DNA from: Lachnospiraceae bacterium NK4A144
GTDB taxonomy: Bacteria; Bacillota; Clostridia; Lachnospirales; Lachnospiraceae
Direction: 5' to 3'
DNA length: 64,000 nucleotides
Assembly (NCBI GenBank): GCA_000424365.1
Contig: AUJT01000002.1
Span: 62,001 to 126,000 of the forward strand
Shown here: piece by piece, positions 8,211-62,377 of the stretch
Layout of the letters: each line of letters begins with the position of its first letter
How positions within the stretch are numbered: position 1 is the stretch's first letter
Notes under the pieces: generated by a model
Database searches by the model: none
The model's input: only the letters and a program-made list of their open reading frames with translations
What the model was told of the DNA's origin: nothing
Program-made: the position numbers and the translations under genes

Positions 8211-8353
8211 GATGTAAGGGTCAAAAGTAAATTTCAATCCTAAAACACTCGCATTCCGCGTAATAACGCTACTTGCTCGTGTTTTGCGGGTCCCAAGGTC
8301 TCAATCCTCTTTGTGCAAGCACAATCGGATTTTGACCTTTTGACCCTGACATC
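8211..8353. repeat. MITE-like palindromic element, copy 1 (143 bp)
   Basis: The ends are near-perfect inverted repeats (GATGTAAGGGTCAAAAG on the left, CTTTTGACCCTGACATC on the right). The core, AATCC-TCT-TTGTGC-AA-GCACAA-TC-GGATT, folds into a hairpin and is shared with the copies at 17629 and 62292. This copy carries about 60 extra bases between the left end and the core (about 8235-8295), themselves an imperfect hairpin (AAAACAC...GTGTTTT). The flanks ATGCTAAT (8203-8210) and ATACTAAT (8354-8361) agree at 7 of 8 bases, like a target-site duplication. No open frame fits inside. Confidence 0.82.
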
Positions 8354-8356
8354 ATA

Positions 8357-9691
8357 CTAATTCAAAATCACATTATTTCCGGATAATTCCTTTTGATCCA
8401 TGAGATCACCGTTATCATCAGATGCCGCTCCATCATCCGGTTCAGGCTGAACTACCTCCGTATCCGTTATCGCACCTGCGATCTCGGGGAAATACCAGGT
8501 ATTATCAGCTCTGTGTATCAGTGCATACTCTTTTACACCGGCTGCTGTGGCTGCGCTTCCTCCATTATCCCACCAGATAAAGGAAAGATTCTGCTCAAGA
8601 GCTTTCTCTCTAAACTCTTCACAGTATTTAACTCTGTCAAATTTAACCTTCGCTACCTGACCAAATTCACCAACCACCACAGGATATCCGCTTTTTCTTA
8701 GCGTTTTCACAGCGTCAAAAACATCATCAAGTCCTTCGGGGCCGGAATAGATATGTACACCCACTAACAACCTTCCATCTATCGTATCCTTAGGTAATGC
8801 AAAGTACGCTATATTTCTGTCATTTGGAGTTGCTGAATACAGATTTACCAGCAAAAATCTGCTTTCATTTCCACCACCTGTTGCTCTGACAGTATCCACA
8901 AAGAGCTGATTCCACTTATTAAAGGCCCTGTAAGAGTATCCCGGTATTTTATCCCAGCGAGATTTCTCATCGACCATTTCATTAAAGCCCTCAAGGATGA
9001 GCTTCTGATCATAGTCCTTAAAGTAATCCGCTATCTGAGTGATCATATTACGGACACGCGCTTCGTTCTCACTGTAATTTGTCTCTGAAGCACGTATCCA
9101 TCCGGCATTTCCTGTGTCATGATGAATATCTATGATCACATACAGATCCTGCTCTAAAGCCGCAGATACTACTGTTCCCACACGTTTTAGCCATGCTTCA
9201 TCTACATTACCGTCCTTATCGATGTGATTCATCCAGGTAACAGGGATGCGGACAGTATTGAAACCTGCATTGCTAACGAGCCGAAATACGCCCGGTGTGA
9301 TCTTTGGATTTCCCCAAATCGTTTCATATGTTTCAGTATTAGCATCCATATAAAACTTATTGTCCCAGTCACAGGAATCGAGGGCATTACCTATATTTAT
9401 GCCGGCTCCCATATCTGTAACAAGTATTTCCGCTGCATTCTGTGCCATAACGGTAATATGTGATGCTTCTCCTGCCGTACTCCAGGCAGCTGTGTCGTCT
9501 GTACTACTTTCGTCACTATGCTCCGCTGCCACGTTACTATCTGCAGCATCTGCAGATACGTACACGATTTCACCTGGCCTATATTCTTCATGTGTTTCCG
9601 GTATTCCTATTACATACCACGCTGCCCATATGAATATTGCAAGCGCGATTACTAAAAAGACTGTGCCTGCGGCAACTACCCATTTTTTCAA
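8357..9691 (-). CDS. Membrane-anchored GH5 endoglucanase-type glycoside hydrolase
   Basis: I choose a TTG start at 9691: GAGGG precedes it, and TTGA overlaps the upstream stop in the same way as ATGA elsewhere in this operon. An in-frame ATG at 9748 lies deep in the upstream gene. The 444-residue product has one N-terminal transmembrane helix (about residues 4-29), an acidic Ser/Thr-rich linker to ~85, and a GH5 domain at ~90-385 resembling subfamily 4: GINIGNALDS, WGNPKIT, VRIPVTW, IDIHHD, acid/base Glu in GFNEM (~238), nucleophile in VVGEFGQ (~342), and IWWDNGG. Retaining beta-glucan cleavage outside the cell is expected. In this operon it probably trims or releases the polymer rather than degrading food. 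Confidence 0.86.
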   Translation of the reverse strand: MKKWVVAAGTVFLVIALAIFIWAAWYVIGIPETHEEYRPGEIVYVSADAADSNVAAEHSDESSTDDTAAWSTAGEASHITVMAQNAAEILVTDMGAGINIGNALDSCDWDNKFYMDANTETYETIWGNPKITPGVFRLVSNAGFNTVRIPVTWMNHIDKDGNVDEAWLKRVGTVVSAALEQDLYVIIDIHHDTGNAGWIRASETNYSENEARVRNMITQIADYFKDYDQKLILEGFNEMVDEKSRWDKIPGYSYRAFNKWNQLFVDTVRATGGGNESRFLLVNLYSATPNDRNIAYFALPKDTIDGRLLVGVHIYSGPEGLDDVFDAVKTLRKSGYPVVVGEFGQVAKVKFDRVKYCEEFREKALEQNLSFIWWDNGGSAATAAGVKEYALIHRADNTWYFPEIAGAITDTEVVQPEPDDGAASDDNGDLMDQKELSGNNVILN

Positions 9692-10680
9692 AATGCTGCC
9701 CTCGCTTTCAATCTGAAGTAGATCACAGCTAATGAAATGAGTCTGCATTTAAGCATTATAAATTCCGGCTTCTTGTATCCCGGAACCATTCCTAAATGCA
9801 CATGTGACATAATTTCCTGCACGAGCGGATGATCAAGTATCAGTTTATAATCCCTTCTTGCCGAACTGTTCCCTGCAAATTCTCTAAAAAGATTTGTTAC
9901 TACTCTAAAGTAATAAGTATCTGCTTCATGAAGTAGTGTCTTGTCTTCCTTTGCTCTCACATCTCCAATTGCTGCATCATAAAGAGGCTCTGTAAATCTG
10001 AGTCTGTCCTCGATACCGTAACGCCTCATTGCACTTCCGGCATGTTGGCGATAAAGAAGTACTGTTGCATTTGACATAAAAAATGAACGGCATTTCTCGT
10101 AATATCTGAGCACAAAAAGAAAATCCTCACCAATCGGAACTCCCTCCGGGAAAGACAAGTGATACTCGTCAATGATCTTCTTTCTAAATATCTTTCCCCA
10201 GCACTCATTCCATTTGGATGAAGCATACATTATACGGTCAGCTTCTCTGGTATCTCTGCAAAAATCTCCCTTAAACTCGTAACGTTCTTCCTTATGCGTT
10301 CCGTCATCATAAAAGGTCTCATATGAAAATGCAATGAAATCTTCATTTTCATCACGGATCACATTGAGTATCTGCTCTACAGCCCCATCCTTCAGCATAT
10401 CATCTGCATCGAGGAACATGATATTACGTCCTTTTGCATTACGGATACCATTATTTCTAGCCTTTGATACTCCGCCATTTTCCTGATGGATCACTTTGAA
10501 TCTCGCATCCCTATGTGCAGCTGCGTTTAATACTTCCGAAGTCTCATCAGTACTTCCGTCATCAACGATCACTACTTCAAAATCTTCGGAGGAAGACTTT
10601 TCAATGCTTTCCAGACACTGATCCAGATATTTTCCGGCATTATAAGCCGGTATTATAATACTTAGTAATGGGCAACTCAT
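9688..10680 (-). CDS. Family 2 glycosyltransferase
   Basis: 330 residues with LLSIIIPAYNAGKYLDQCL, VIVDDGSTDETSE, GGVSKARNNGIR, the FLDADDML motif near residue 92, and PIGEDFLFVLRYY as acceptor-side acidic motif. The start forms an ATGA overlap with the stop of the Wzz-like gene, and the end overlaps the GH5 start. It is a cytoplasmic transferase of the polysaccharide operon; the substrate is unknown. Confidence 0.91.
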   Translation of the reverse strand: MSCPLLSIIIPAYNAGKYLDQCLESIEKSSSEDFEVVIVDDGSTDETSEVLNAAAHRDARFKVIHQENGGVSKARNNGIRNAKGRNIMFLDADDMLKDGAVEQILNVIRDENEDFIAFSYETFYDDGTHKEERYEFKGDFCRDTREADRIMYASSKWNECWGKIFRKKIIDEYHLSFPEGVPIGEDFLFVLRYYEKCRSFFMSNATVLLYRQHAGSAMRRYGIEDRLRFTEPLYDAAIGDVRAKEDKTLLHEADTYYFRVVTNLFREFAGNSSARRDYKLILDHPLVQEIMSHVHLGMVPGYKKPEFIMLKCRLISLAVIYFRLKARAAF

Positions 10681-11363
10681 TTTTTCTCCCTAATCTCAGG
10701 AAGGATTCCGAGGATCATATCCTCATCTTCCAGTGCGCACTGTTCTATAAGCCTTACTCTGTCTGAGAAAAGTTCCTTAACAAAGATCACTGCTGATGCT
10801 GCAGCTACTCCGGCGAGGAAAAACAGGATCCTGATCTTCCAAAGAGAACGGAATCCATCAGAAGTCTTATATGACGAATCAGCAGAATCCAACATCTGCA
10901 CAATATTTGTGCCGGTAGCAGAACGCATCTCTATTACAAAGGATTCAGCAACTGCGTTAGCCAGGTCCACTGCAAGTGCCGCATTACTTGAGGATGCAGA
11001 GAAATTCATCGTAAGTCCGGTCCCTGATGTAGACACATTTATAAGCCCCTGCACATCCCTTGCCGAAAGTCCGTATGACGGTATCATCTGAGCTGCTCTC
11101 TCGCAAACACGCGTACTCTTTGCCAGGTCTGTATAATCCGACATTGCTATCGTTATATTATAATTCTCCGTATGACTGCTCATCTGCGCCGCATACACGG
11201 ATGCTGATGCATGAAAGACATTTTCGACCGAACCTCCAAGTGTAAGGATGATTCCGATAATAAAACACAACAAACCTACCGCGATCGGAATAAGCTTCTT
11301 TCTCCATACAGCGATAAAACTCAGCTCAAAATCCGCAAAGCGAATATCTTCATTCAGATTCAT
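10677..11363 (-). CDS. Chain-length determinant / Wzz-type capsular polysaccharide protein
   Basis: 228 residues with the Wzz/CapA topology: a short cytoplasmic N-terminus, a transmembrane helix at about 28-46, an extracytoplasmic domain, and a second helix at about 175-195. DFELSFIAVWRKKLIPI near the N-terminus is a typical membrane-proximal stretch. The proline-rich motif normally before the second helix is not evident. In Gram-positive clusters such proteins activate the partner tyrosine kinase and set polymer length. The partner here would be the ATPase-like protein at 12309, two genes upstream. ATGA overlaps on both sides show tight coupling. Confidence 0.82.
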   Translation of the reverse strand: MNLNEDIRFADFELSFIAVWRKKLIPIAVGLLCFIIGIILTLGGSVENVFHASASVYAAQMSSHTENYNITIAMSDYTDLAKSTRVCERAAQMIPSYGLSARDVQGLINVSTSGTGLTMNFSASSSNAALAVDLANAVAESFVIEMRSATGTNIVQMLDSADSSYKTSDGFRSLWKIRILFFLAGVAAASAVIFVKELFSDRVRLIEQCALEDEDMILGILPEIREKK

Positions 11364-12319
11364 CTCATGCCTCCCTTACGCATTTTGATCACACCGAAAA
11401 GAATTATAAATAATACAACTGATGCCGAAAACGCTGCGCCTGTCATAATAAGGTTCATCATATATTTCTTTTCATTTCCAGCTGTTGTCTGAGCTTCCTC
11501 TCGTATACCAACATTAAATGAATAGGTCTGTGGCTTTGTCTCATGGGCAGCACCATCAACATCTGTATAGGTATAGTAAAAACTTACATTCTGCTGGCCG
11601 ATCTTCTTGAATGCAACATAGCAGTCTGTCGTGGTTGTACTATTTCCCATGATGGAACCGATACTCTGTTCCTGAGCATCAATAGATTCACCTTCCATAT
11701 GAAGGATAACGTTACTCAGCGCTGTACGACCACTGTTTGTGACAGTTACGCCGACACGGTTATTCGCTCCTACTTCAGCATTGCTGTCCATATCAAATCC
11801 GTTTACAGCCAGGATACCTGTTGATGATACCGGGAGCTGTATCTGAAATGAATTTGTATTATATGTCCTATATGCATCTGAGTAGGTTACTGTCACTGTA
11901 CAAAGTACAAACGGATCAGCAATATCATCAGACGCCATCAGACTAAATGACCCCTTTGCCTTTTCTTCAGTATCGAGATATCCCAAATAACACTCATTAC
12001 TCGAACCATACGTAGGATAGATCAACTGATCCTGCTGGGAAAATGTAGCATAAATATTTCCCGTCTTTCCTGTATAGCTTGTATTTTTTAATTTGATCTT
12101 AAGCTGAAATTCCTCTCCGGGAGTAATGGCATCTGCCCCTTCGATCTCGTACTTATCAAGTACTATAGTAGCGTTATCTAGTGGTTCAACATTAGTTATG
12201 ACACCTTCTGAAGCATTATATACCGGTGCCGCAGAAACAGAAGTAAGCGAAGCTGCCATAAAAACTCCGGAAAATACAACAGCCATTAGCTTTTTCAGAT
12301 AGATCTTATTACTTCGCAT
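11360..12319 (-). CDS. Secreted, C-terminally membrane-anchored protein with CARDB/Ig-like repeats
   Basis: I choose the ATG at 12319, preceded by GGAGG; the longer frame to 12448 runs through the upstream gene. The 319-residue product has a signal peptide (Lys-rich start, hydrophobic core, likely cleavage after SVSA near 30), then about 255 extracytoplasmic residues with beta-rich segments such as GVTVTNSGRTALSNVILHM, typical of CARDB/COG1361-like domains. A single helix at ~290-310 and a basic tail (KMRKGG) follow. The exact function is unknown. Sitting between the kinase-like and Wzz-like genes, it may be an outer-face assembly or polymer-binding partner. Confidence 0.75.
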   Translation of the reverse strand: MRSNKIYLKKLMAVVFSGVFMAASLTSVSAAPVYNASEGVITNVEPLDNATIVLDKYEIEGADAITPGEEFQLKIKLKNTSYTGKTGNIYATFSQQDQLIYPTYGSSNECYLGYLDTEEKAKGSFSLMASDDIADPFVLCTVTVTYSDAYRTYNTNSFQIQLPVSSTGILAVNGFDMDSNAEVGANNRVGVTVTNSGRTALSNVILHMEGESIDAQEQSIGSIMGNSTTTTDCYVAFKKIGQQNVSFYYTYTDVDGAAHETKPQTYSFNVGIREEAQTTAGNEKKYMMNLIMTGAAFSASVVLFIILFGVIKMRKGGMR

Positions 12320-13076
12320 CTGATGCCTCCTTCTTTTTCCCCTTTTTCTTAAATTTTCGTGCCAAGGCGCGCTTCTGCATATTTTCGAGATTTTCACGTG
12401 AGAAATAATCAAAATCTCTGATCTGTCTGCGATACTGACGTGCCTCAACTCTGTTTACTATCATTCCCGCATAGTGATCTTCAAAGCGGCTGAGCTCCAG
12501 TCTTGCATCCAGTATTTCTCTCTTTGTAGAAACATTGAGCGCTGTTACAAGGATAAAGCGATCTGTCTCAGGTATAAGGATTTCCGCGTCATTAACTGTA
12601 TTAATGGACGGAAGATCAAAGATCACATAATCATATTTTTCCTTAAGCAAACGCACCATCTCTTCCATGCGTCCCGTACATAAGAGTCGTACCGGATTTT
12701 CCACGCAGTCACCCGAAGGAATGAAGGAAAGACCCTTATAATTTGTTTCATATACAGCATCCTCAACTGATATAGATGTATCCATGAGATAGCCTGCAAG
12801 GCTATGTGTGCTGCTTTCTCCGCTTATTCTCTTGTAATCTGTTCCCTTACGAAGATCACAGTCAACAAAAACAGTCTTCCATCCGGCTTCCGCCAATGCT
12901 ATAGCTACGTTGATAGCTACAGATGTAGTTCCTGCATGACTTCCTACTCCTGTAAATATGAAGGATCCGGCATTACTCTCTTTTCTTATGCCATAAAGGC
13001 GTACTACTACCCGGTCTATCGCATCATTCATGACACTGTCTTCAGTGTTATAAAGTTCAAGAATCTGCTTTCCCAT
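12309..13076 (-). CDS. CpsD/CapB-like BY-kinase ATPase with degenerate P-loop
   Basis: The start is set at the ATG at 13076 (AAAGGA upstream) rather than a GTG at 13112. The 255-residue protein has the bacterial tyrosine-kinase/MinD fold: Walker A' VFVDCDLRKG at ~70-78 and Walker B YDYVIFDLP at ~148-156. The Walker A region at ~42-52, GVGSHAGTTS, has Thr where the invariant GK(S/T) lysine belongs. The C-terminus is Lys/Arg-rich and lacks the tyrosine cluster that BY-kinases phosphorylate. It may therefore be a non-catalytic or altered regulator of the Wzz-like protein. It overlaps the next gene by 11 bases. Confidence 0.8.
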   Translation of the reverse strand: MGKQILELYNTEDSVMNDAIDRVVVRLYGIRKESNAGSFIFTGVGSHAGTTSVAINVAIALAEAGWKTVFVDCDLRKGTDYKRISGESSTHSLAGYLMDTSISVEDAVYETNYKGLSFIPSGDCVENPVRLLCTGRMEEMVRLLKEKYDYVIFDLPSINTVNDAEILIPETDRFILVTALNVSTKREILDARLELSRFEDHYAGMIVNRVEARQYRRQIRDFDYFSRENLENMQKRALARKFKKKGKKKEASDAK

Positions 13077-13113
13077 TTTTTCCTTTCTTGCTGACATTAT
13101 TGTCAATATCACT

Positions 13114-15129
13114 TCACTGTTCTGTCTTTTCAGAAGTATTTTTCTGACCTTCGGTATTTAACCATTGTATAAACTCTGCGCTTCCATCCTCAAAAAAATG
13201 GACACTTCCGCTATTTATCTTACTCATGAGCTGTGTATAAAATGTTCCCTTATGAGGCGCCTCACCCGTATACCAACTGATCTCAGGAACTGCTGTTACT
13301 GCATTTGCCGGAACCGTAAATGAATCTCCGGGCTGCAATTCCTCATAGCCTATATCCTTGCCCTTCTCATCAAAGAAATATACTCTCATAAATCTTGCAG
13401 ATTTTACCCAGTCCTGTATCGATGACTGGAATGTATATTTACTTGACGGTATGACGTTCATCTGTCCATTTACACGAATAACTGAATAGTTCTGACTATA
13501 CAACCCATTTGCAAACCAGTATGCTTCATCTCCGAGTTCAACGGAATCAAGATTTGCACCGGAAACACTCTTCTTTTTTTCAGAATGATCAGTAACAGTG
13601 AGTTCCAGCGTACTCTTTACCCCAGTCTTTACATCCGTAACTGTAAGTGTTGTCTTCCCTTCCTTTTTACCGAGGATCAACCCCGAATGCTCTGTGAAAT
13701 CTCCCATTGCATCTGCTACTTCCGGATCAGATGACACAATGGTCACTGCTCTCTGCTCCACAGTTTCAGGAGTGTATACCGGCATAAACACTGCAGCATC
13801 GTTTAGATTCAGTTCTGCGCTCTTTCCGTCTTTACTCATGACCGCACGTCCGTCTTTTCCTATGTACCTAAGTGACACAGCGGTCGGAACAAGTTCTTTA
13901 TCTGGATCTGTGACATCTTCCGGCGCATATTCACGAACCCAGTCGACCCACATATTGATTTCTTTAGTATCAGACGGAATTGTGTTCTTATCCCAAAAGC
14001 CAATATCGAACTTTATGACCTTCAACATGTTTTCAAACGGATTTACGCCCTCATAATAATCGCTTATTGATGAGGTATCGTATGTCCAAAGCTGTTTATC
14101 ATCCACGAACAACGTAAGATTTGTTCCCTTCATCTCAACAGCATAGATATGATACTCTCCGTCAAAAGCTCCCCATCCGGGCTGTACCTGTGAATTATTC
14201 CAAGGTGAGCCATTAAACCAATGTAGTGCGCTCGCAAATGTTCCGTCAGGATATGTCTCTAACATATCTATCTCACCGAACAAAGGCCATTGGCCGGCAC
14301 CCATGGTCCAAAAAGCGATATTTGAACCATTCACCCGATCCATCTTTATCCTTGCTTCAATACGCCCCTGTCTTATTCCTTTATCTGGATTCTGTATAAC
14401 TACAGGATCATACCATTCACCTGCAGTATCCCCCTCTTTCAAAGGAGCTGCCTTTAAGTGAAGCACTGAGTTTTCGACTTTAACACTATCTTCATTGAAA
14501 TTTCCGGACGCAAGACTTCCTACTGTTTCCCAGTTATCGCTATTCACAGCAGTTCCGTCAAACTCATCATGCCAGACCAGGATCCTGCCTTCCTGCACAT
14601 CCGAAAGCCCCGTAGTATCTACACTCGGAGATTTATCTGCAAAAGCTGTGTCATAATGTACCAACGTGCTCTGCAGCGGGAAATCTGTTATGGATTTTAC
14701 AGTTTTTTCATCCTTATCAGAAAAAAGATCCCAGATTTCTGACGGATCGGCATCAACATTCCATACATTTCCATCCCCTGTGATCCATGTATTACCTGAC
14801 ATGGCTACATACAGATCGGTACCATCCACCGCTGCGCACCAAAAGCCATATGCCGGAACAGAGAATGAAACGTCACCATTTCCACTTACACTCTCTGCTT
14901 TTCCGGAATGGAGCTTTTTCAGTATCTGTTCTTCCGCCTTTGGATCATATACTGTACGACACTTTATTTCAGCACCATCGTAATAGTACATCTGCATGGC
15001 ACTTGCCGATGCTGATGCATCAGCAAGGATATCATTACCTGTGTTGCTGTCTTCTGTTACAGATAGATTCGCACAGCCTGTAAGCGTGATCACTACTGCT
15101 GCACAGATCGTCAACAAGTATTTTTTCAA
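13114..15129 (-). CDS. GH16-family glycoside hydrolase lipoprotein
   Basis: 671 residues. The N-terminus is a lipoprotein signal with lipobox LTGC (Cys 19), so the mature enzyme should be tethered to the outer membrane face. The GH16 domain spans about 185-415: VWHDEFDGTAVNSDNW, GRIEARIKMD, and the catalytic GEIDMLE (nucleophile Glu ~286, acid/base Glu ~291), all intact. A bacterial Ig-like Big2-type domain follows (~425-515: LTVTDVKTGVKSTLELTVTD) and then an unassigned beta-rich tail. GH16 enzymes cut beta-1,3/1,4-glucans or galactans. Encoded between the priming transferase and the kinase-like gene, it is probably a polymer-processing enzyme of this cluster. Confidence 0.87.
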   Translation of the reverse strand: MKKYLLTICAAVVITLTGCANLSVTEDSNTGNDILADASASASAMQMYYYDGAEIKCRTVYDPKAEEQILKKLHSGKAESVSGNGDVSFSVPAYGFWCAAVDGTDLYVAMSGNTWITGDGNVWNVDADPSEIWDLFSDKDEKTVKSITDFPLQSTLVHYDTAFADKSPSVDTTGLSDVQEGRILVWHDEFDGTAVNSDNWETVGSLASGNFNEDSVKVENSVLHLKAAPLKEGDTAGEWYDPVVIQNPDKGIRQGRIEARIKMDRVNGSNIAFWTMGAGQWPLFGEIDMLETYPDGTFASALHWFNGSPWNNSQVQPGWGAFDGEYHIYAVEMKGTNLTLFVDDKQLWTYDTSSISDYYEGVNPFENMLKVIKFDIGFWDKNTIPSDTKEINMWVDWVREYAPEDVTDPDKELVPTAVSLRYIGKDGRAVMSKDGKSAELNLNDAAVFMPVYTPETVEQRAVTIVSSDPEVADAMGDFTEHSGLILGKKEGKTTLTVTDVKTGVKSTLELTVTDHSEKKKSVSGANLDSVELGDEAYWFANGLYSQNYSVIRVNGQMNVIPSSKYTFQSSIQDWVKSARFMRVYFFDEKGKDIGYEELQPGDSFTVPANAVTAVPEISWYTGEAPHKGTFYTQLMSKINSGSVHFFEDGSAEFIQWLNTEGQKNTSEKTEQ

Positions 15130-15130
15130 G

Positions 15131-16534
15131 TCAGTATGCTCCTTTGTGCTTTAACAGTTCCAATACGGTAGCAAATAAAATACGTATATCCAAGAAAGGA
15201 GTCCAGTTATCTATGTACTCCAAGTCCAGTTCCACAACTTTATCAAAATCAGTAATGTCGCTCCGACCTGTAACCTGCCAGAGTCCGGTTATTCCGGGCT
15301 TTATACTGATACGTCTCCACTGTCCGCGATGATACTTCTGCACTTCATCCAACGTCGGCGGACGGGTTCCAACGAGACTCATCTCTCCCTTAAGGACATT
15401 AAAGAGCTGTGGCAGTTCATCGATACTTGTCTTACGAATAAATCGTCCAAAACGCGTAACCCTCGGATCATTCTTCATCTTGAACATCATGCCGTCCTTG
15501 ACTTCATTCTGCTCCATGAGTTCTTTCTTTTTTTCTTCAGCATCCTGAACCATGCTGCGGAATTTATACATATAGAAGTTTCTACCGTTCTGTCCGACTC
15601 TTAACTGCTTAAAGATCACAGGCCCCGACGAATCCAGTTTGATAATTATCGCAACTATCAAAAGAAGTGGTGACAGAATTATAAGTCCGAGAAGCGAGCT
15701 TACAAAATCCACCACCCGCTTAAATAACTGATCATTTGTATTTAGAGTGATCGTATGATATGTGATCATGGGATAAATGCCTATGGAACTCACAAAACTA
15801 TTGGTTCTGCGAACCGAATGTGAATCAAGTACCATTCGAACAGTCACACCCATCTCAAGACAGAGATCTGCATACTCCCGATATCTTTCCGGAGATTCAT
15901 CCTTATGAACCATGAAATAGACCTGATCCACTTCATTTTCTCTGATGATATCCTCCAACTCGTCCATATATCCAAGTACGTTAAAAATACCCACACCTTT
16001 ATTTTCATTATGATCACGGAGCACATACCCGATCTCATCGATACGCATACTGGTCTTATTAAGGAAATAATTAAACTTCTCATACTCTTCAAATACACCC
16101 ACAAATACCGCTCTCGGTGCCTGATATCTGGTAGTTACTGTCTGAAGAAATCTGCTAAAAATAGTGTTTATAGCCATAAATATATATGCAGTTGCTATAA
16201 ATAAGTAATAAAACACCCTTATATTATTGTCAGGATTGTAGACAAAAAGAACGACCGCCATAGATACCGAGGCGATCAGCCATGATTTGGTTATTATCTT
16301 GTAAAATCTATCGAGATAAAAGAAAAGCGTAACATCATAAATCCTCCCCTGTTTATTGGCAAGGATATAGATCACTGCAAAAATAACTGCAATAGAAAGA
16401 CATTTAATTGTGACCCTATCATTATACTTCCCTATCGTCAACAGGCAGTCAAATAAAAACGCCAGTCCGAGTACTGCCATGTCTATAAGGATCTGGTTTG
16501 TATTAGTATTGGCTCCTCTGTTTCTACGATTCAT
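15131..16534 (-). CDS. Priming sugar transferase (undecaprenyl-phosphate glycosyl-1-P transferase)
   Basis: 467 residues with the layout of WbaP/CpsE/EpsL-type polyprenyl glycosylphosphotransferases: four N-terminal transmembrane helices, a cytoplasmic Rossmann-like domain (~120-250), a membrane re-entrant helix at ~275-300, and the catalytic domain to the end. Catalytic motifs are [42 protein letters not shown], and [15 protein letters not shown]. It transfers a sugar-1-phosphate, commonly glucose or galactose, to undecaprenyl phosphate to start the repeat unit. It is followed two bases later by the GH16 gene. Confidence 0.93.
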
Positions 16535-16609
16535 AAATCACTCACCCAACTACTTTATTAATACTCTCAGGAAAACAAAAACACTCTCCTTTTGCCCCTG
16601 CATTATTAA

Positions 16610-17551: not shown

Positions 17552-17617
17552 TGCTCCCTGCTTCCTCTCTTACTTAACGGTTTAAACCATTAAAGAGCAG
17601 TCAAAATTTGCTTTCAT

Positions 17618-17626
17618 ATTATATCA
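17618..17626 (-). promoter_or_regulatory. Candidate extended -10 of the polysaccharide operon
   Basis: On the minus strand TGATATAAT (TG-N-TATAAT) sits about 70 bases before the PssD-like start. No good -35 lies 16-18 bases further upstream; that position falls inside the palindromic element at 17629-17709. The TATAAT overlaps the target-site-like repeat flanking that element. Inferred from sequence only. Confidence 0.45.
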
Positions 17627-17628
17627 CT

Positions 17629-17709
17629 GATGTAAGGGTCAAAAGTAAATTTTGTCTCAGTCCTCTTTGTGCAAGCACAATCGGATTTTGACCTTTTAAC
17701 CCTGACATC
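17629..17709. repeat. MITE-like palindromic element, copy 2 (81 bp)
   Basis: The ends are GATGTAAGGGTCAAAAG and CTTTTAACCCTGACATC, with the same core hairpin as the other copies. It is flanked by a perfect 8-bp direct repeat, ATATCACT, at 17621-17628 and 17710-17717, which is strong evidence for insertion with target duplication. It lies between the opp terminator and the first gene of the polysaccharide operon, in the same orientation as the other two copies. Confidence 0.87.
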
Positions 17710-17840
17710 ATATCACTCTATGAGGCAATACTTTAATAGAATATCAGAAAATCGTATCTCATGTTATACAAAAAATTAATTATCCTTTAAGAAATTCACA
17801 GCAAATTCACAAATGGTGTCGTTTATCTATAAATTAGCTT

Positions 17841-53288: not shown

Positions 53289-53317
53289 ATTGTACTTAAA
53301 AACAGTCAATTATGCAA
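53289..53317 (-). promoter_or_regulatory. Promoter of the OPT transporter gene
   Basis: The -35 is TTGCAT (53312-53317), the spacer 17 bases, the -10 TACAAT (53289-53294). The leader is about 135 nt with no obvious terminator. Confidence 0.65.
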
Positions 53318-53415
53318 GATAAAAATGATCAAAATAATTTACAAAAATGCCGATTTAACAGGCTTTTCTAGCTTAATGCGTCACCGTGTTAAATCAGCAC
53401 ATCGTATTCTTATTA

Positions 53416-54753: not shown

Positions 54754-54860
54754 AACAAATCCTCTCTCCTAAACAAAATTAACAGATATCCCTATAAACG
54801 ACATCAAGATCCTATGATCAAAAGTCAAAACACTTTTGCCTCTGTCATCATTTTTTAACC

Positions 54861-54893
54861 CAAAAAACAGGCATGAAAATTTCATACCTGTTT
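54861..54893 (-). terminator. Rho-independent terminator of the suf operon
   Basis: AAACAGGTATGAAA/TTTCATGCCTGTTT on the minus strand (a 14-bp stem with one G-T pair) is followed by TTTT, 11 bases after the sufU stop. Confidence 0.88.
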
Positions 54894-54903
54894 ATTGAGA
54901 ACT

Positions 54904-55383: not shown

Positions 55384-56590
55384 AACCCATGATTCCTCTT
55401 ATTTCTTTTACTTTATCCATGAAGAAACGGACATCTTCCTCATTATTATAGAGGTAAAGGCTGGCACGTGCCGTACTTGAAACATTCAGGTACTCAAGAA
55501 GCGGCTGTGCACAGTGATGTCCTGCTCGGATACAGATTTTATCGCCATCAAGGATTGATGATATATCGTGAGGGTGTACTCCGTCAATAGTAAATGAAAC
55601 AATGCCATTGTGCTTCTTCGGATCACTGCTTCCGAGAATATGAAAATACGGAAGCTTCGCTGCTTCTTCAAAAATAATGGATGTGAGTGCATCTTCTGTC
55701 TCACGGATAAAATCAAAACCAACATTTTTTAGATACTTTATCGCTGCATCAAGACCTACTGCACCCGTTGCATTGACAGTTCCTGCCTCAAACTTATGCG
55801 GTATCTCAGCCCATTTCTCAGTATCGCGCGTCACATACTCGATCATCTCACCGCCGCGAAGGAACGGAGGCATGGCTTCGAGAAGTTCTTTTCTGCCATA
55901 AAGAACGCCGATTCCAAAGGGTGCCATGAGCTTATGACCGGAAAATACCAGAAAATCTGCGCCGAGTTCTTTTACATCCACCTTCATATGCGGTGCTGAC
56001 TGGGCAGCATCTACTACAACAACTGCTCCGACAGCATGCGCCATATCAGAAATCTTCTTTACAGGATTTACGCAGCCAAGTACATTTGACACATGTCCCA
56101 CAGCGACAATCTTTACGCCATTAACGATCTTTTTCTGAAGTTCTGCGTCTGTAAAAGTACCGTCTGTCTCCGGCTCAAGATACTCAACCTTCGCACCGGT
56201 TCTCTCTGCTGCCATCCTCCAGGGAAGGATATTTGAGTGATGCTCCATAATAGTCGTGAGCACCGTGTCTCCCGGCTTAAGAACACTGCAGGCATAAGTA
56301 TAAGCAATGAGATTAAGGGATTCCGAAGCATTTCGGGTAAATACGATTTCTTTTGCAGAATCAGCTCCGATAAACTCTCTGACAGTCTCTCTGGCGTTTT
56401 CATAAGCATCCGTAGCCTCAATGCTGATACCATAGAGACCTCTGAGCGGATTAGCATTCATTTTTTCATTAAATTCACGTTCAGCATCTATCACAACCTG
56501 AGGTCTCTGTGATGTTGCCGCACTGTCAAGATAAGTAACTCCGGTCTTTTCAAAAATCGGAAAATCCTTTCGGAACTGATTTTCTAGCAT
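55373..56590 (-). CDS. sufS: Cysteine desulfurase SufS
   Basis: 405 residues, class-V aminotransferase fold. The PLP lysine lies in FSGHKLMAPFGIGVLYG (~225), the HHSNILPW element near 118, and the active cysteine in CIRAGHHCAQPLL (~360). It takes sulfur from cysteine and passes it to SufU. The start is AT-rich and lies 95 bases after sufD, with a strong RNA hairpin between the two. Confidence 0.96.
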   Translation of the reverse strand: MLENQFRKDFPIFEKTGVTYLDSAATSQRPQVVIDAEREFNEKMNANPLRGLYGISIEATDAYENARETVREFIGADSAKEIVFTRNASESLNLIAYTYACSVLKPGDTVLTTIMEHHSNILPWRMAAERTGAKVEYLEPETDGTFTDAELQKKIVNGVKIVAVGHVSNVLGCVNPVKKISDMAHAVGAVVVVDAAQSAPHMKVDVKELGADFLVFSGHKLMAPFGIGVLYGRKELLEAMPPFLRGGEMIEYVTRDTEKWAEIPHKFEAGTVNATGAVGLDAAIKYLKNVGFDFIRETEDALTSIIFEEAAKLPYFHILGSSDPKKHNGIVSFTIDGVHPHDISSILDGDKICIRAGHHCAQPLLEYLNVSSTARASLYLYNNEEDVRFFMDKVKEIRGIMGYGD

Positions 56591-56632
56591 AATCCCACTA
56601 CTCCTAATCTATATTTATCGTATTTCTAACAT

Positions 56633-56666
56633 AGCGACTATTCCGTTGATCAACAGAACAGCCGCT
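56633..56666 (-). other. 34-nt RNA hairpin between sufD and sufS
   Basis: The transcript strand reads AGCGGCTGTTCTGTTGAT followed by CAACGGAATAGTCGCT. It pairs end to end: of 15 stem pairs around a GATC loop, three are G-U wobble and the others are Watson-Crick. In the DNA sense of the plus strand these same three positions are A-C mismatches, so only the transcribed strand folds fully. There is no T-run after it, so it is not an ordinary terminator. Confidence 0.72.
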
Positions 56667-56685
56667 AATGAGATAATTCTGTATT

Positions 56686-57747
56686 TTACAACACTTCTTC
56701 TATAAACTGCTGGATACGTCCGAGTGTATTTACGTCCTGTATCATTCGGTTTACATTATTAAGTCTTGCCTTTGTCATGAGTATCTCTGCTTCTCTCTCG
56801 GAAATACCGCGAGATTCCATATAGAAAAGCATATCCTCAGAAAGACGTCCAATGGTTGCTCCGTGAGTACCTTCCACATCTTCCTCGCTGCAAAGGATAT
56901 TCGGAAGCGACTTATTATGCACATCCTTGGAAAGCAGAAGTACATTTTCCTGCTCATCGCCGACCGCGCCCTTTGCACCGCGGATAAGGTTGATGGTTCC
57001 ACGGAAATTCTTTACAGACTTATCCATCATCGCACCGTTCAGGATAAGCTCACTTTCGCTCTTCTTTCCGTGATGGCGGATATTGTAGTTCATGTCGAGA
57101 AGCTGTGTGCCTCGTGTGAGGTATCCCACATTTCCGTCAAAACGGCTCTTTCTGCCATACAGATCTGCCTGGACACCGATAAAGTTCCTGCCGCCGCCAA
57201 GCTCCATCTGGATAATATCTACATGTGCATCGTCCGCAGTTACAGCACCTATATCATCAAAATGAAGATACTGGTCACCGAGCAGATTTGTTTTTACAAG
57301 GTGAATAGTTGCTCCTGCCTCAGCCTTGAGCTTTGTCTGGATTCCAAAGAAACCGGACTCATTTCTCTTAGATGTATAATTCATGATAACAGTGATCTCA
57401 CTGCCTTCCTCTGCAATGATCTCCTGCTTTCTAAGAAGTCCGTCACCCTCACCAAGCTTATAATCAAGACAGATCGGCTCTGAAACAGTTTTGCCCTTCT
57501 GAGCGCGTATTACCAGTGTCGGTACGTTTTCGCGCTTCATAAGATTTTCCATCTCAGGACCAACTCCGCCCTGTACATCATCTAAAAGACTTCCGTCCTT
57601 TTCAACAGTAACGCCATTCGGAAGATCCTGTATCACGAGATCTCCACGATTATTCAGCTTTACTGTCTCATCTATTCCAACTCCGTTCAGATCCAGAAAG
57701 TTCCAGGTCAGCGTCGGGAGCGGATTAAATACACCCTTAATTTCCAT
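56686..57747 (-). CDS. sufD: SufD, Fe-S cluster assembly protein
   Basis: 353 residues with the right-handed beta-helix SufBD core: GVQADLYGRKSRFDGNVGY (split here), LLDMNYNIRHHGKKSESELILNGAMMDKS (quoted as NYNIRHHGKKSESEL) and the conserved C-terminal helix motif with SEEDVEGTHGATIGRL and ISEREAEILM. It partners SufB and SufC in the scaffold complex. It lies 4 bases after sufB. Confidence 0.93.
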   Translation of the reverse strand: MEIKGVFNPLPTLTWNFLDLNGVGIDETVKLNNRGDLVIQDLPNGVTVEKDGSLLDDVQGGVGPEMENLMKRENVPTLVIRAQKGKTVSEPICLDYKLGEGDGLLRKQEIIAEEGSEITVIMNYTSKRNESGFFGIQTKLKAEAGATIHLVKTNLLGDQYLHFDDIGAVTADDAHVDIIQMELGGGRNFIGVQADLYGRKSRFDGNVGYLTRGTQLLDMNYNIRHHGKKSESELILNGAMMDKSVKNFRGTINLIRGAKGAVGDEQENVLLLSKDVHNKSLPNILCSEEDVEGTHGATIGRLSEDMLFYMESRGISEREAEILMTKARLNNVNRMIQDVNTLGRIQQFIEEVL

Positions 57748-57751
57748 TTGA

Positions 57752-59152
57752 TCAGCCTCCTGTCATTTCCAGATTGATAAGGTTATTCATCTCTACTGCA
57801 TATTCCAGCGGAAGTTCCTTAGATACAGGGTTTGCAAATCCGCTGACGATCATTGCACGAGCCTCATTCTCGGAAATACCACGGCTCATCAGATAAAATA
57901 CCGCATCGTCACTGATACGGCCGATCTTTGCCTCATGTCCGATATCTGCATCATCTGTACGGATATCCATTGCAGGAACCGTATCAGAAACGGAAATATC
58001 ATCAAGCATAAGTGACTGACAGGAAACAGTAGCCTTGGCATTCTTCGCCTGAGGCATAACTGTAATAGAGCTTCTGTATGTGCTTATACCGCCATCTTTA
58101 CTGATGGACTTGGAGCTGATACTGGAAGCTGTATTCTTACCGATCTGAATAACCTTTGCACCTGTATCCAGATTCTGAGTCTTTCCTGCAAATGTGATAC
58201 CTGTAAACTCCATGTGGGAATTATCACCCTTAAGTATCGTAGTCGGGTACAGGTAGCTTACATGAGAACCGAACGAACCGCTAACCCATTCCATTGTAGC
58301 GCCTTCTTCGCAGATAGCACGCTTGGTATTAAGGTTGTACATATTTTTGGACCAGTTCTCGATCGTAGAATAACGAAGATGCGCATTCTTGCCCACATAC
58401 AGCTCTACACATCCCGCATGAAGGTTTGCAACGCTGTACTTCGGAGCTGAACATCCCTCGATAAAGTGCAGGTCTGCACCTTCCTCAACGATAATAAGTG
58501 TATGCTCAAACTGACCTGCTCCCGGAGCATTCAGTCTGAAATATGACTGCAGCGGTATCTCTACCTTTACTCCTGCCGGTACATATACGAATGATCCGCC
58601 GGACCAAACCGCACCGTGAAGAGCAGCAAATTTATGATCTGTCGGAGGCACAAGCTTCATGAAATGTGACTTTACGAGGTCCTCATGATCCCTTAACGCA
58701 CTTTCCATATCAGTATAAACTACGCCCTGTGCCAGAACTTCTTCCTTAACATTATGATAAACAAGCTCTGAGTCATACTGGGCACCTACACCTGCAAGAC
58801 TCTTTCGCTCTGCATCCGGAATACCAAGTCTTTCAAAAGTGTTCTTGATATCGTCCGGAACCTCGGACCACTTGCCCTTCATTCCTGTGTTCGGACGCAC
58901 GTATGTTACGATATCGTCCATATTAAGTCCGGAAATATCCGGTCCCCACTCAGGGATCTTCTGCTCATTATATGTCTCCAGAGCCTTCAGACGAAATTCC
59001 GTCATCCACTCCGGATCATTCTTTTCCTTAGAGATCTGACGGACTATATCTTCTGTCAAACCTTCCTTAACCTTATAAAAATCTTTTTCATCGTAACGGA
59101 AATCGTAAAGGCTTCGGTCAATATCCTTTACATCCGGTTTGATTTCAGCCAT
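57752..59152 (-). CDS. sufB: SufB, Fe-S cluster scaffold protein
   Basis: 466 residues, the normal SufB length. WSGGSFVYVPAGVKVEIPLQ, EGADLHFIEGCSAPKYS, RAICEEGATMEWVSGSFGSHVSY (part), and the C-terminal DADIGHEAKIGRISDDAVFYL are family landmarks. It forms the cluster scaffold with SufC and SufD. It starts directly at the sufC stop. Confidence 0.96.
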   Translation of the reverse strand: MAEIKPDVKDIDRSLYDFRYDEKDFYKVKEGLTEDIVRQISKEKNDPEWMTEFRLKALETYNEQKIPEWGPDISGLNMDDIVTYVRPNTGMKGKWSEVPDDIKNTFERLGIPDAERKSLAGVGAQYDSELVYHNVKEEVLAQGVVYTDMESALRDHEDLVKSHFMKLVPPTDHKFAALHGAVWSGGSFVYVPAGVKVEIPLQSYFRLNAPGAGQFEHTLIIVEEGADLHFIEGCSAPKYSVANLHAGCVELYVGKNAHLRYSTIENWSKNMYNLNTKRAICEEGATMEWVSGSFGSHVSYLYPTTILKGDNSHMEFTGITFAGKTQNLDTGAKVIQIGKNTASSISSKSISKDGGISTYRSSITVMPQAKNAKATVSCQSLMLDDISVSDTVPAMDIRTDDADIGHEAKIGRISDDAVFYLMSRGISENEARAMIVSGFANPVSKELPLEYAVEMNNLINLEMTGG

Positions 59153-59904
59153 CAGTCTTTCTCCTGTCCGCCGATAAAGCGCTCAAATCCATGCTCATTG
59201 ATCTCAGTAACGAGCGATGCATCACCTGTTTCAACTATCTTTCCTTTAACAAGGACATGAGTATAGTCAACATTCAGTGATTCAAGGATACGTGTTGAAT
59301 GTGTGATTATAAGGAGTGCACCGTCACGCTTTTTCTGATATTCTTCAATACCTCTGGAAACTGTGCGAACAGCATCTACATCAAGACCTGAATCTGTCTC
59401 ATCAAGTATCGCCAGCTTAGGATTCAGCATGAGAAGCTGAAGGATCTCAGCCTTCTTTTTCTCACCACCGGAAAATCCAACGTTAAGATCACGATCCTTA
59501 TAGGAAGAATCGAAAGAAAGAACTTCCATTGCTTCCTTAAGATTTTTTTTGAACTCAGAATATTTGATCTTTTCTCCGGACTGCTGAACGATCGAATTAC
59601 GGATAAAGCTTGAAAGAGAGATTCCCGGAACCTCGAGCGGATTCTGGAAAGAAAGGAACATTCCTGCCTTTGCTCTTTTATCAGCTGATTCATCTTTTAT
59701 AGAAAGGCCATTAAAGAAAATATCTCCTCCTGTGACCTTATAATTCGGATTACCCATCAGAGCATAGCCAAGGGTAGATTTACCGGCACCATTCGGGCCC
59801 ATAAGTACATGTGTCTCACCCTTATTGATCTCAAGTGTGACTCCGTGAAGGATCTCGCTATCCTCCACCCCTACCGAAAGATTCCTAACGTCAAGTAAAG
59901 CCAT
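59152..59904 (-). CDS. sufC: SufC, ABC-type ATPase of Fe-S assembly
   Basis: 250 residues. Walker A GPNGAGKST near 38-46, signature FSGGEKKKAEILQ, Walker B KLAILDETDSGLD, and switch His in ITHSTRIL. It drives conformational change of SufB/SufD. It is the first gene of the suf operon, with an approximately 120-nt leader carrying the motif at 59918-59963. Confidence 0.97.
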   Translation of the reverse strand: MALLDVRNLSVGVEDSEILHGVTLEINKGETHVLMGPNGAGKSTLGYALMGNPNYKVTGGDIFFNGLSIKDESADKRAKAGMFLSFQNPLEVPGISLSSFIRNSIVQQSGEKIKYSEFKKNLKEAMEVLSFDSSYKDRDLNVGFSGGEKKKAEILQLLMLNPKLAILDETDSGLDVDAVRTVSRGIEEYQKKRDGALLIITHSTRILESLNVDYTHVLVKGKIVETGDASLVTEINEHGFERFIGGQEKD

Positions 59905-59917
59905 TTTTTTCTCCTCA

Positions 59918-59963
59918 TAAACGTCAGTTTAAAACTGACTTAATATTGTCGGATTTACGTTTT
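59918..59963 (-). promoter_or_regulatory. 46-base leader motif of suf, shared with zapA
   Basis: As transcribed AAAACGTAAATCCGACA, then ATATTAAGTCAG, then TTTTAAACTGACGTTTA. It includes the near-palindrome GTCAGTTT-T-AAACTGAC. It aligns over its full length with 41925-41970, at 35 of 46 bases. Function unknown. Confidence 0.55.
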
Positions 59964-60030
59964 ATATCCTCTATATATACTAGGTTTTGTATGATTTCTT
60001 ACATTTCCTAGTGAGATACCGTAGAATGAA

Positions 60031-60059
60031 ATGATAACACATCCATATTATACAGTCAA
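60031..60059 (-). promoter_or_regulatory. sufC: Promoter of the suf operon
   Basis: The -35 is TTGACT (60054-60059), the spacer 17 bases, the -10 TATCAT (60031-60036). Transcription would start near 60024. Confidence 0.65.
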
Positions 60060-60094
60060 CTTGCACGCAATCTATTGGATCAAACATCTTTTCT

Positions 60095-60268
60095 TTATTT
60101 CTGATGTCTTACAACTGCATACTCATCATCTGCCGAATAATATGGACAATCAAAGTTGGTCCCTGACAAAAAGCGATACATCTCATCCTGATCCAGATTT
60201 ACCTCACAGGTATAATACTCCGCTTCTTCATCATAAACATAATTAACACAGCTGTCACAATTAGTCAT
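60095..60268 (-). CDS. DUF6472-type small protein (57 aa)
   Basis: MTNCDSCVNYVYDEEAEYYT at the start, CEVNLDQDEMYRFLSG, and CPYYSADDEYAVVRHQK at the end. The four Cys in CDSC, C and C-containing segments suggest a small metal-binding or redox protein. The pattern matches the DUF6472 mini-proteins widespread in Lachnospiraceae, whose function is unknown. GAGGG precedes the ATG. The gene lies between the pyruvate kinase terminator and the suf promoter and is too short for many gene finders. Confidence 0.82.
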   Translation of the reverse strand: MTNCDSCVNYVYDEEAEYYTCEVNLDQDEMYRFLSGTNFDCPYYSADDEYAVVRHQK

Positions 60269-60304
60269 AGCACCCTCTTTAACAAAATTCCAACGGAATT
60301 AAAC

Positions 60305-60348
60305 AAAACCGCTGTGCAGTCAGTTCTTACTGACCATACAGCGGTTTT
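60305..60348 (-). terminator. Terminator-like hairpin after pyruvate kinase
   Basis: AAAACCGCTGT/ACAGCGGTTTT on the minus strand, with an inner TCAGT/ACTGA, is followed by TTTTG. It lies 130 bases after the pyk stop. A promoter (60350-60378) lies just before it, so the hairpin may form the 5' end of the DUF6472 transcript. Confidence 0.7.
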
Positions 60349-60349
60349 T

Positions 60350-60378
60350 ATTATAATGTCGAGGCACTTTCATGTAAA
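60350..60378 (-). promoter_or_regulatory. Promoter upstream of the DUF6472 gene
   Basis: The -35 is TTTACA (60373-60378), the spacer 17 bases, the -10 a perfect TATAAT (60350-60355). It drives transcription through the hairpin at 60305-60348. Confidence 0.6.
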
Positions 60379-60475
60379 GTTACATCGGTTACAAATCTCC
60401 GATACTCGACAATCTTGTTGAATTACGCCATGCTAACACACGACATTCTATTTTTTAAGAAAAGACCTGCAGGAA

Positions 60476-61897
60476 TTAAACTTCCTCTACACGGATCATG
60501 TTTGTCTTTCCGGATACACCAAGCGGAAGACCGGCTGTAAGAACAACCTTGCTGCCATGGCGGATAATACCTGCAAGCTCAGCCTGATGAATAGCTGACT
60601 CAAACAGAGCCTCAGCATCTTCTTCCTGCTTGATCACAAGCGGAATAGTATCGAAGAGAAGATTTGTCTGGTAAGCAACTCTTGACTCTGTGCTGCATGC
60701 CACGATCGGGCATGTAGGCTTAAATCTTGAAAGTCTCTCTGCTGTAAAGCCGGACATTGTAACTGCGATGATAGCATCAGCATTAATATCCTGAGCAACT
60801 GTACATGCTGCATGTGAGATAGCCATTGTTGTCTCCGGAATAATGGCATTACGATAACGGTCGATCATACGCTGCTCATAATCGATATCGCCCTCTGTTC
60901 TCTCAGCGATACGGGACATGATCTCAACTGCCTCTACAGGATAAGAACCGTTTGCAGTCTCACCGGAAAGCATGATAGCTGTAGTACCATCATAGATAGC
61001 GTTAGCTACGTCAGTGGTCTCAGCACGTGTCGGACGCGGATTGTGGATCATGGAATCCAGCATCTGAGTAGCTGTGATAACGATCTTACCCTCTCTCTCA
61101 GCGAGCTTGATCATCTTTTTCTGAAGTGAAGGAACTTCCTCAAGCGGAACCTCAACACCGAGGTCACCTCTTGCTACCATGATTCCGTCTGCAACCTTAA
61201 GGATCTCTTCTATATTACGAACACCCTGTACAGACTCGATCTTTGCGATGATCTTCATCTTGCTTCCGTGACGGTCAAGAAGCTTTCTTACCTGCATGAT
61301 ATCATCTGCTGTACGTGTAAAGGATGCTGCGATAAAGTCAAAACCAAGTCTGCATCCGAATACGATATCTTCACGATCCTTATCGCTAATGAAAGGCATT
61401 GAAAGGTCTGCACCCGGAACGTTTACGCCCTTACGATCTGATACAGGACCATCGTTCATTACTGTACAAACAATATCAGTAGAACCAACCTTATCAACAT
61501 GAAGCTCGATAAGACCATCATCGATAAGGATAGAACCACCCTCTTTTACATCATTAACAAGACCAGCATAGTTTACATATGCCTTTGTCTCATCACCAAC
61601 TATCTCCTCAGTTGTAAGAGTGAATGTCTGTCCCTTCTTCAGCTGATACTTTTTATTTTCTTCCTTGAATGTACCAAGACGGATCTCCGGTCCTCTGGTA
61701 TCAAGGAGAGTACCGATAGGCTTATCCATCTCTGTTCTGATCTTCTTCAGATTTTTGAACTTTGCTCCATGCTCCTCATGATCACCATGAGAGAAGTTAA
61801 ATCTGGCAATGTTCATGCCTGCCTTTATAAGTTTACGGAGCATATCCTCGCTCTGTGATGCAGGTCCGATGGTACATACAATTTTGGTTCTTCTCAT
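60476..61897 (-). CDS. pyk: Pyruvate kinase
   Basis: 473 residues, lacking the extra C-terminal PEP-like domain seen in some Firmicutes. RTKIVCTIGPASQSEDML, MNIARFNFSHGDHEEH, the ATP/metal site ARGDLGVEVPLEEVP and ITATQMLDSMIHNPRPTRAE are intact. It converts phosphoenolpyruvate and ADP to pyruvate and ATP, feeding PFOR. AAAGGA precedes the start. It is monocistronic; its promoter is near 61968-61996. Confidence 0.97.
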   Translation of the reverse strand: MRRTKIVCTIGPASQSEDMLRKLIKAGMNIARFNFSHGDHEEHGAKFKNLKKIRTEMDKPIGTLLDTRGPEIRLGTFKEENKKYQLKKGQTFTLTTEEIVGDETKAYVNYAGLVNDVKEGGSILIDDGLIELHVDKVGSTDIVCTVMNDGPVSDRKGVNVPGADLSMPFISDKDREDIVFGCRLGFDFIAASFTRTADDIMQVRKLLDRHGSKMKIIAKIESVQGVRNIEEILKVADGIMVARGDLGVEVPLEEVPSLQKKMIKLAEREGKIVITATQMLDSMIHNPRPTRAETTDVANAIYDGTTAIMLSGETANGSYPVEAVEIMSRIAERTEGDIDYEQRMIDRYRNAIIPETTMAISHAACTVAQDINADAIIAVTMSGFTAERLSRFKPTCPIVACSTESRVAYQTNLLFDTIPLVIKQEEDAEALFESAIHQAELAGIIRHGSKVVLTAGLPLGVSGKTNMIRVEEV

Positions 61898-61967
61898 TCG
61901 TTTGTTCCTTTCTCATGCCCGTATTCGCTACAGACAGTGGTCTTTTCTCTCGTTTCAAAACACGCGT

Positions 61968-61996
61968 AGTATCGTATCACAGTTAATGCACGACAA
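61968..61996 (-). promoter_or_regulatory. pyk: Promoter of pyk
   Basis: The -35 is TTGTCG (61991-61996), the spacer 17 bases, the -10 GATACT (61968-61973); moderate fit to consensus. Confidence 0.5.
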
Positions 61997-62083
61997 ACAC
62001 CCCTTTTTTCGTAAAAATCTAAAATTCTCCTTTTCTATATCATTCGTGTACATATATCAGCAATCCACTGTACAAAATGTATA

Positions 62084-62095
62084 TGAAACGTTTCA
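62084..62095. promoter_or_regulatory. Palindrome upstream of pyk, possible LacI-type operator
   Basis: TGAAACGTTTCA is a perfect 12-base palindrome centred on CG, about 90 bases upstream of the pyk -35. It resembles LacI/CcpA-family sites but is 2 bases shorter than a standard cre. The rest of 61997-62291 is A+T-rich and without a gene. Confidence 0.35.
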
Positions 62096-62291
62096 AACTT
62101 TAATTTTTATATTGCACATTTTTGTTCTATATCGACACATTATTGTAGTTTGCATATACACCCCGTCCCATTTTATCCTTTTTTATATATCTATGATGAC
62201 CATATGACACAAATGGTTTTTAGACACTTTTATCATTTTGTGTGCATTTTTCACTTTTAGGAATTCAATTGTTATTTCCTATAAGTTAAAT

Positions 62292-62377
62292 AATGTAAGG
62301 GGCAAAAGTAAGGGTCAAAAGGTCTCAATCCTCTTTGTGCAAGCACAATCGGATTTTGACCTTTTGACCCTTACATC
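62292..62377. repeat. MITE-like palindromic element, copy 3 (86 bp)
   Basis: It begins AATGTAAGGGGCAAAAG and ends CTTTTGACCCTTACATC, with the common core. The internal arms GGGTCAAAAGGTC and GACCTTTTGACCC pair almost perfectly around the core hairpin. The flanks AGTTAAAT (62284-62291) and ATTTAATT (62378-62385) match at 6 of 8. It lies 36 bases after the PH-domain gene stop. Confidence 0.8.

Follow-up and report, generated by a model that had tools for sequence, protein, structure and literature searches.

The window analysed here, 64,000 nucleotides of contig AUJT01000002.1 from Lachnospiraceae bacterium NK4A144 (positions 62,001 to 126,000, forward strand), carries three copies of a palindromic repeat (Table 1). 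A preliminary description, made from the letters of this DNA, had proposed a gene-less mobile element of a family that it did not recognise, flanked by 8-bp target duplications and moved by a transposase elsewhere in the genome. A check of the sequence placed the three copies where that description had put them, all in one orientation, and the identities of their flanking repeats were as given there. A core of 22 bases (TTTGTGCAAGCACAATCGGATT) is identical in the three copies and had no match in 100 shuffles. The end motif of the element, with up to three mismatches, was found seven times in the window against 0.06 expected. Reading of individual loci in the NK4A144 genome gave a common form of 190 bp, of which the window carries three internally shortened versions.

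The family proved to be a known Rfam entry. In a covariance-model search (cmscan), copy 1 matched RF01699 (Clostridiales-1) with 81.7 bits on the minus strand at 8210-8354 (gathering score, 48), and a copy of the common form (L003; loci and genomes are given L and G numbers) scored 128.7 bits. The more severely shortened copies missed the cut-off: copy 3 scored 42.9 bits and copy 2 had no match to RF01699 at E<=1. Rfam lists RF01699 as probably a structured RNA, with no function assigned to it. The Clostridiales-1 motif was tabulated as 'probably' RNA and as not cis-regulatory (Weinberg et al. 2010, PMC2864571). The sequences and the fold of the motif are the same as here, copy 1 and the common NK4A144 copies matching the whole model; in the passages of that paper found by term, nothing is said on mobility. 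The element described here extends past the published model by a second hairpin and by terminal inverted repeats with target duplications. Literature searches by family name, accession and terms for miniature inverted-repeat transposable elements (MITEs), which covered little of the subscription journals and no supplements, found Clostridiales-1 nowhere called mobile. Both the reading of RF01699 as mobile and a MITE body whose fold is conserved from genus to genus appear to be new within the literature searched.

The element is abundant in the NK4A144 genome (G000; 4.09 Mb in 68 contigs). A query of 141 bases around copy 2 returned 102 matching pieces, with several pieces to an element, and the end motif with up to two mismatches had 137 forward and 134 reverse occurrences, whereas a reversed-pattern control had 3 and 4. 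Further copies, on which the proposal of a mobile element depended, are thus numerous. Two-ended elements collected from NK4A144 and other genomes were 34-415 bp long, 60 of 118 being between 188 and 195 bp. When 20 of the 118 were left out for missing flanking open reading frames (ORFs) or missing 700 bp of flank, 87 of the remaining 98 were intergenic and 11 lay inside a called ORF. The proposal of a non-autonomous, gene-less palindromic element present in many copies is supported.

Among 295 genomes of the order, 57 had a match to RF01699 at E<=0.001 and 42 had one above the family cut-off; the matches came from 26 of 130 genera, and 14 control genomes gave none. A 196-base NK4A144 element matched 25 of 61 genomes, NK4A144 included. 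An exact scan for the 18-base end found at least 76 stretches, mostly from Lachnospiraceae (MC2017, KH1P17, KH1T2, Oribacterium, Butyrivibrio). Matches in Halalkalibacter, Cytophagaceae and Chloroflexi look like chance, as no second element half was present in the 200-300 bases read. Butyrivibrio fibrisolvens D1 also carries the element, on its 243-kb plasmid, and near-identical 188-bp copies lie on both replicons of G282. Viral contigs gave three matches, all to one stretch, in which the second element half was absent from the bases read; phage records gave four partial, unannotated matches. RF01699 copies of other genera (L160, L170, L172, L176, L177) appeared by eye to be followed by partial tandem copies of their own hairpins.

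The inverted ends are about 17 bp long and read GATGTMAGGGTCAAAAG in this genus and GACGTAAGGGTCAAAAG / GAGGTAGGTGTCAAAAG in Butyrivibrio. Target duplications were counted by pairing ends within 420 bp, taking the outermost partner and requiring perfect, flush direct repeats of at least 7 bp; the chance level was obtained by pairing left and right flanks of different elements. For NK4A144, the loci were the first 100 of 271 end places together with those found by the 141-base query. One-ended copies were excluded, and duplicate elements were removed within groups before counting. Perfect flush duplications of 7-8 bp flanked 81 of the 118 two-ended elements against 2.98 expected (20/34 in NK4A144, 14/16 in G282, 14/17 in G313, 6/8 in G146 and 27/43 in the scan loci), and 80 of 116 once two insertions were dropped that have the same flanks in two genomes. 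Target duplications, as proposed in the preliminary description, are thus genuine for the family, but most are of 7 bp (67) and not of 8 bp (14). Their GC content is 7.6%, counted without orientation by strand. When NK4A144 ends were oriented by the RNA strand, AT adjoined the RNA-5' end in 91-93% of 44 ends, whereas next to the RNA-3' end the rule was looser (A in 82% and T in 64% of 39 ends).

Comparison with relatives revealed filled and empty sites. At the window site 54803-54810, G030 carries a full element between two TCAAAAT, with 91-92% identity on both sides. At L027, NK4A144 has one ATATTCT, where G009 has an element between two copies of it (L214); less than 20 bp from this empty site, NK4A144 has an independent 73-bp insertion. 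Some orthologous sites thus differ, although others share their insertion (L009/L293, L023/L327), and the comparison of orthologous sites proposed earlier, like the search for further copies, spoke for mobility. None of the three window copies has a clean empty counterpart in the relatives compared (G009, G030, G336); G336 is without copies 1 and 2 but its flanks are too diverged to place the exact site, and G030 is rearranged across that stretch. Orthologous pairs also revealed decay. Two full G030 elements correspond to one-ended stubs in NK4A144, one of them left by a deletion between two GTGCA repeats; a third pair has its stub in G030. The two one-ended NK4A144 copies are deletion products, and such decay, although traced in few cases, may explain the other one-ended copies.

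Table 1. Positions in the window of the repeat copies, their flanking duplications and related features
Feature	Position	Strand	Sequence	Remarks
Copy 1	8211-8353	minus (RNA strand)		RF01699 element of 143 bp; P4 hairpin and part of the 3' end missing; from cmscan and 190-bp relatives
Left target duplication of copy 1	8203-8210		ATGCTAAT	7/8 identical to 8354-8361
Right target duplication of copy 1	8354-8361		ATACTAAT
Copy 2	17629-17709	minus		81-bp internally shortened form with the two inverted ends and hairpin P2 only, from the fold
Left target duplication of copy 2	17621-17628		ATATCACT	8/8 identical to 17710-17717
Right target duplication of copy 2	17710-17717		ATATCACT
Empty target site	54803-54810		ATCAAGAT	single in the window, full-length element in G030; from blastn and sequences
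Copy 3	62292-62377	minus		86-bp shortened form with P2 and both ends; flanks 6/8 identical
Left target duplication of second element	62882-62889		ATCGGATC	perfect
Second, unrelated mobile palindromic element	62890-63034		ends GTTACTGTTCA / TGAACTGTAAC	145 bp
Right target duplication of second element	63035-63042		ATCGGATC	perfect

RF01699 copies thus combine the features of a MITE: they are short, gene-less and dispersed in many copies, have terminal inverted repeats (GATGTMAGGGTCAAAAG at both ends) and target site duplications, and have empty counterparts in relatives (54803-54810 against G030, L027 against L214). Mobility is well supported for the family, and in Lachnospiraceae the orphan RNA family RF01699 behaves like a non-autonomous transposon, of a kind (MITE) that is itself known. 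From the inverted ends and the short duplications, we infer that a DDE-type transposase acts in trans. It is highly probable (about 0.88 in our estimate) that the window repeats represent, in shortened form, a non-autonomous transposable element which has a common full form of about 190 bp and RF01699 as its body, and which is moved in trans by a DDE-type transposase. The enzyme, whose nature and chemistry are presumed, would recognise the inverted ends and make staggered cuts of 7-8 bp at AT-rich AT-N3-AT sites. The copies that survive would be mostly intergenic, and they would decay through deletions into shortened forms and one-ended stubs.

The RNA strand of the 190-bp form is predicted to fold into a four-way junction, after which comes a hairpin containing the second inverted end. 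In each of 30 sequences from 17 genera, the modelled strand was more stable than the complementary one (mean -79.0 against -70.4 kcal/mol). In a structure predicted from the alignment of these sequences, all 25 aligned pairs showed changes on both sides, and 97.0% of 738 pair cells were paired, against 73.6% in shuffled and 25-48% in slid versions, although figures of this type can be inflated by relatedness, and slid versions are at a disadvantage against a structure predicted from the same alignment. Cells that differ on both sides of the helices numbered 168 against 42 in shuffled versions, and one-side changes were few. The 25 pair columns contained 705 Watson-Crick, 11 G-U, 3 A-C and 19 other cells; for comparison, 12 tRNAs from the fetched loci had 29 G-U in 287 pairs. 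Six alignment columns do not vary; each holds G or A, and in the fold predicted for L153 none of the six is paired. The G-U counts on the two strands (34 against 27), like the 11 G-U against 3 A-C cells, do not decide between an RNA and a DNA fold. The fold is thus kept by compensatory change with unusual strictness, the selected form being possibly RNA or possibly single-stranded DNA. Hairpin P2 with its flanking A and T runs resembles a terminator, but few of the gene pairs around the elements are convergent (6, against 23 divergent and 58 tandem).

As to why the four-way-junction body is kept, a reason can be suggested tentatively, although we regard it as rather unlikely. Clostridiales-1 might live as a transposon and at the same time be a structured RNA (or single-stranded DNA) that has a function, with its four-way-junction fold, its invariant unpaired G and A and its co-changing helices retained across genera of Lachnospirales for the life cycle of the element itself, either by recruiting or controlling the transposase or by protecting the surrounding host genes. 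It would then represent a new kind of fold-bearing non-autonomous transposon.

The element might also move by a mechanism other than that of DDE transposases, for example with a single-strand (hairpin) transposase or through reverse transcription of its RNA. Such a mechanism would explain the conserved fold, the variation of the duplications between 7 and 8 bp and the AT rule that is stronger at the RNA-5' end; the low proportion of G-U pairs relative to tRNAs and the excess of both-side over one-side changes are also consistent with it. The orientation of the element in NK4A144 points in the same direction, since 42 of 55 strong-skew cases lie on the strand with positive GC skew. This bias was, however, absent from G282, G313 and G146 (38 of 68) and so is not general. 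In addition, several forms of 36-47 bp in G282, with little beyond the two ends, still have flush duplications, although these forms may be later deletions. We thus consider a non-DDE mechanism improbable and prefer a DDE-type transposase acting in trans on the inverted ends.

Several observations weigh against the element being a transposon moved in this way, or limit how far that holds. No perfect flush duplication was found at 37 of the 118 two-ended elements, and the duplications are not of constant length. At the ends of the Rfam model, a flush 7-bp repeat was found in none of 28 diverse copies, and mobility is therefore established for some genera only; in L153 and L178, a flush 7-bp repeat was seen by eye farther out than the model ends. 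Among the examined matches to Transposase_mut (PF00872), DDE_Tnp_1 (PF01609) and DDE_Tnp_ISL3 (PF01610), the families to which the search was confined, no transposase was flanked by the element ends. This holds also for G282, which has two contigs and looks recently active: it had no match to PF00872, and none of its nine matches to PF01609 had such ends within the fetched loci. Finally, at the site of copy 3, the close relative G009 has near-identical flanks and, in place of the repeat, an unrelated hairpin of similar length. The site is not empty and hence gives no clean insertion, so that the 6/8 'duplication' is poor evidence alone. Copy 3 does not qualify by itself as evidence of insertion and is set aside.

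In the gap around copy 3 (window 62240-62420, compared with L184, L198 and L202), where NK4A144 has its RF01699 copy, G009, G030 and G336 have terminator-like hairpins that differ from one relative to the next. Such a site would be expected if the repeats had spread by homologous recombination or by replacement of intergenic hairpins such as terminators, and not by insertion. It was seen at the copy 3 site only, whereas simple insertions with duplications occur elsewhere, and we hold this explanation to be very improbable. A reading in line with the Rfam entry, on which RF01699 would be a family of ordinary small-RNA genes that do not move, its repeats being paralogues and its duplications coincidental, could account for the strongly conserved fold, the more stable modelled strand, the unpaired invariant bases and the insertions common to different species, but it is hardly credible and, as the sole explanation, is already contradicted by the excess of flush duplications over the roughly three expected, by the empty and filled sites and by the many near-identical copies per genome.

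The preferred reading, a non-autonomous element moved by a transposase in trans, calls for a mover. The preliminary description had assumed one elsewhere in the genome; its claim of mobility is upheld by the duplications and by the empty and filled sites, whereas no transposase with these ends came from the three families searched (PF00872 in 2+14 genomes, PF01609 in 5+9 and PF01610 in 5). IS256/Mutator transposases (PF00872) were rejected as the mover: they are absent from the copy-rich genomes G000, G282, G313, G146 and G030 and present in G319, G335 and G336. ISL3 (PF01610) was likewise rejected on the ends that could be read: the ISL3-like insertion sequence (IS) of NK4A144 has the end GGCTCTTCAGGGG, unlike GATGTMAGGGTCAAAAG, while the ends of the one in G020 were unreadable. 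Also rejected were IS4-type elements (PF01609), whose readable ends are CAATGTCA with 10-bp duplications (in G032 and G030, unlike GATGTMAGGGTCAAAAG), CCATATGCACTAACTT with 9 bp and AGGGCACAGTCTTCAG. None of the IS elements of relatives whose ends were read has GATGTMAGGGTCAAAAG. Among the matches listed, the 76 scan loci contained no pair of matching ends more than 400 bp apart with a duplication. A 3.47-kb end pair with the same flanks in L096 resembled an autonomous element, but no ORF read there looked transposase-like by eye, a judgement made with no family search. An end-like match near a transposase in L276 is no element end, and an element-like stub in L364 lies just outside an IS that has other ends.

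An IS6-like element of G032 gives a lead, and a lead only. It has 8-bp duplications, and its end GGTAGTGTCAAA is similar to the Butyrivibrio element end GAGGTAGGTGTCAAAAG apart from one inserted base. Its transposase matches Pfam DDE_Tnp_IS240 above the cut-off and NCBIfam IS6 with 69.6 bits, under the cut-off of 125. No relatives of this transposase were confirmed in viral contigs; on plasmids, 27 records were found, all less than 60% identical.

Bacterial MITEs have been reviewed by Delihas (PMC2229807), including RUP, NEMIS/Correia, CIR and YPAL/RU-2. In the parts of that review consulted, MITEs are, like the RF01699 element, shorter than 200 bp and gene-less, with terminal inverted repeats, target duplications and RNA secondary structures, and RUP is linked to an IS through shared ends. 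Most MITEs described there end in a TA motif, whereas the RF01699 element has GATG...CATC ends and AT-rich duplications of 7-8 bp. Its body also differs from those described there in being a four-way junction, which is conserved among sequences of 17 genera. RF01699 shows marks of having inserted many times in gut and rumen bacterial genomes. Mobility explains why this family, long an orphan 'sRNA', has many scattered intergenic copies, and it makes the function testable in terms of which transposase acts and whether the fold serves as RNA, as single-stranded DNA or as both. It also illustrates that covariation alone is no proof that a motif is a cellular RNA gene. The element may be used as a strain-level marker for rumen Lachnospiraceae and possibly as a genetic tool.

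The second palindromic element of the window (Table 1) is absent from the corresponding stretches of G009 and G030, where the flanks are partly diverged. Duplications of 8 bp were found at 10 of its 13 paired copies against 3 of 156 mismatched pairings, although one nested junction accounts for two of the ten, and two copies among the 13 overlap. Some of the longer RF01699 copies (up to 399 bp) contain this element of about 145 bp with its ends GTTACTGTTCA. The nested junction is present in 10 RF01699 copies at 10 different sites, some shortened to 112 bp, and 7 of these 10 have perfect flush duplications of 7-8 bp, each different. The different duplications around the composites suggest that RF01699 together with the second element probably moved as units.

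Some observations on the IS elements may be added. Five NK4A144 contigs start or end inside one ISL3-like transposase gene (L148, L149, L150, L151, L152), so that a multi-copy IS breaks the assembly. In L364 (G170), the IS with ends AGGGCACAGTCTTCAG lies inside a terminator-like hairpin, with a repeat of the hairpin on either side of the IS, beside the element-like stub GATGTGAGTGTCAAAAG. In G032, an IS4-like element with ends CAATGTCAG is found repeatedly beside hairpin ends of the GTGTGAACAGTAAC type (L124, L126, L129, L134, L136), as if it preferred the second small element as a target.

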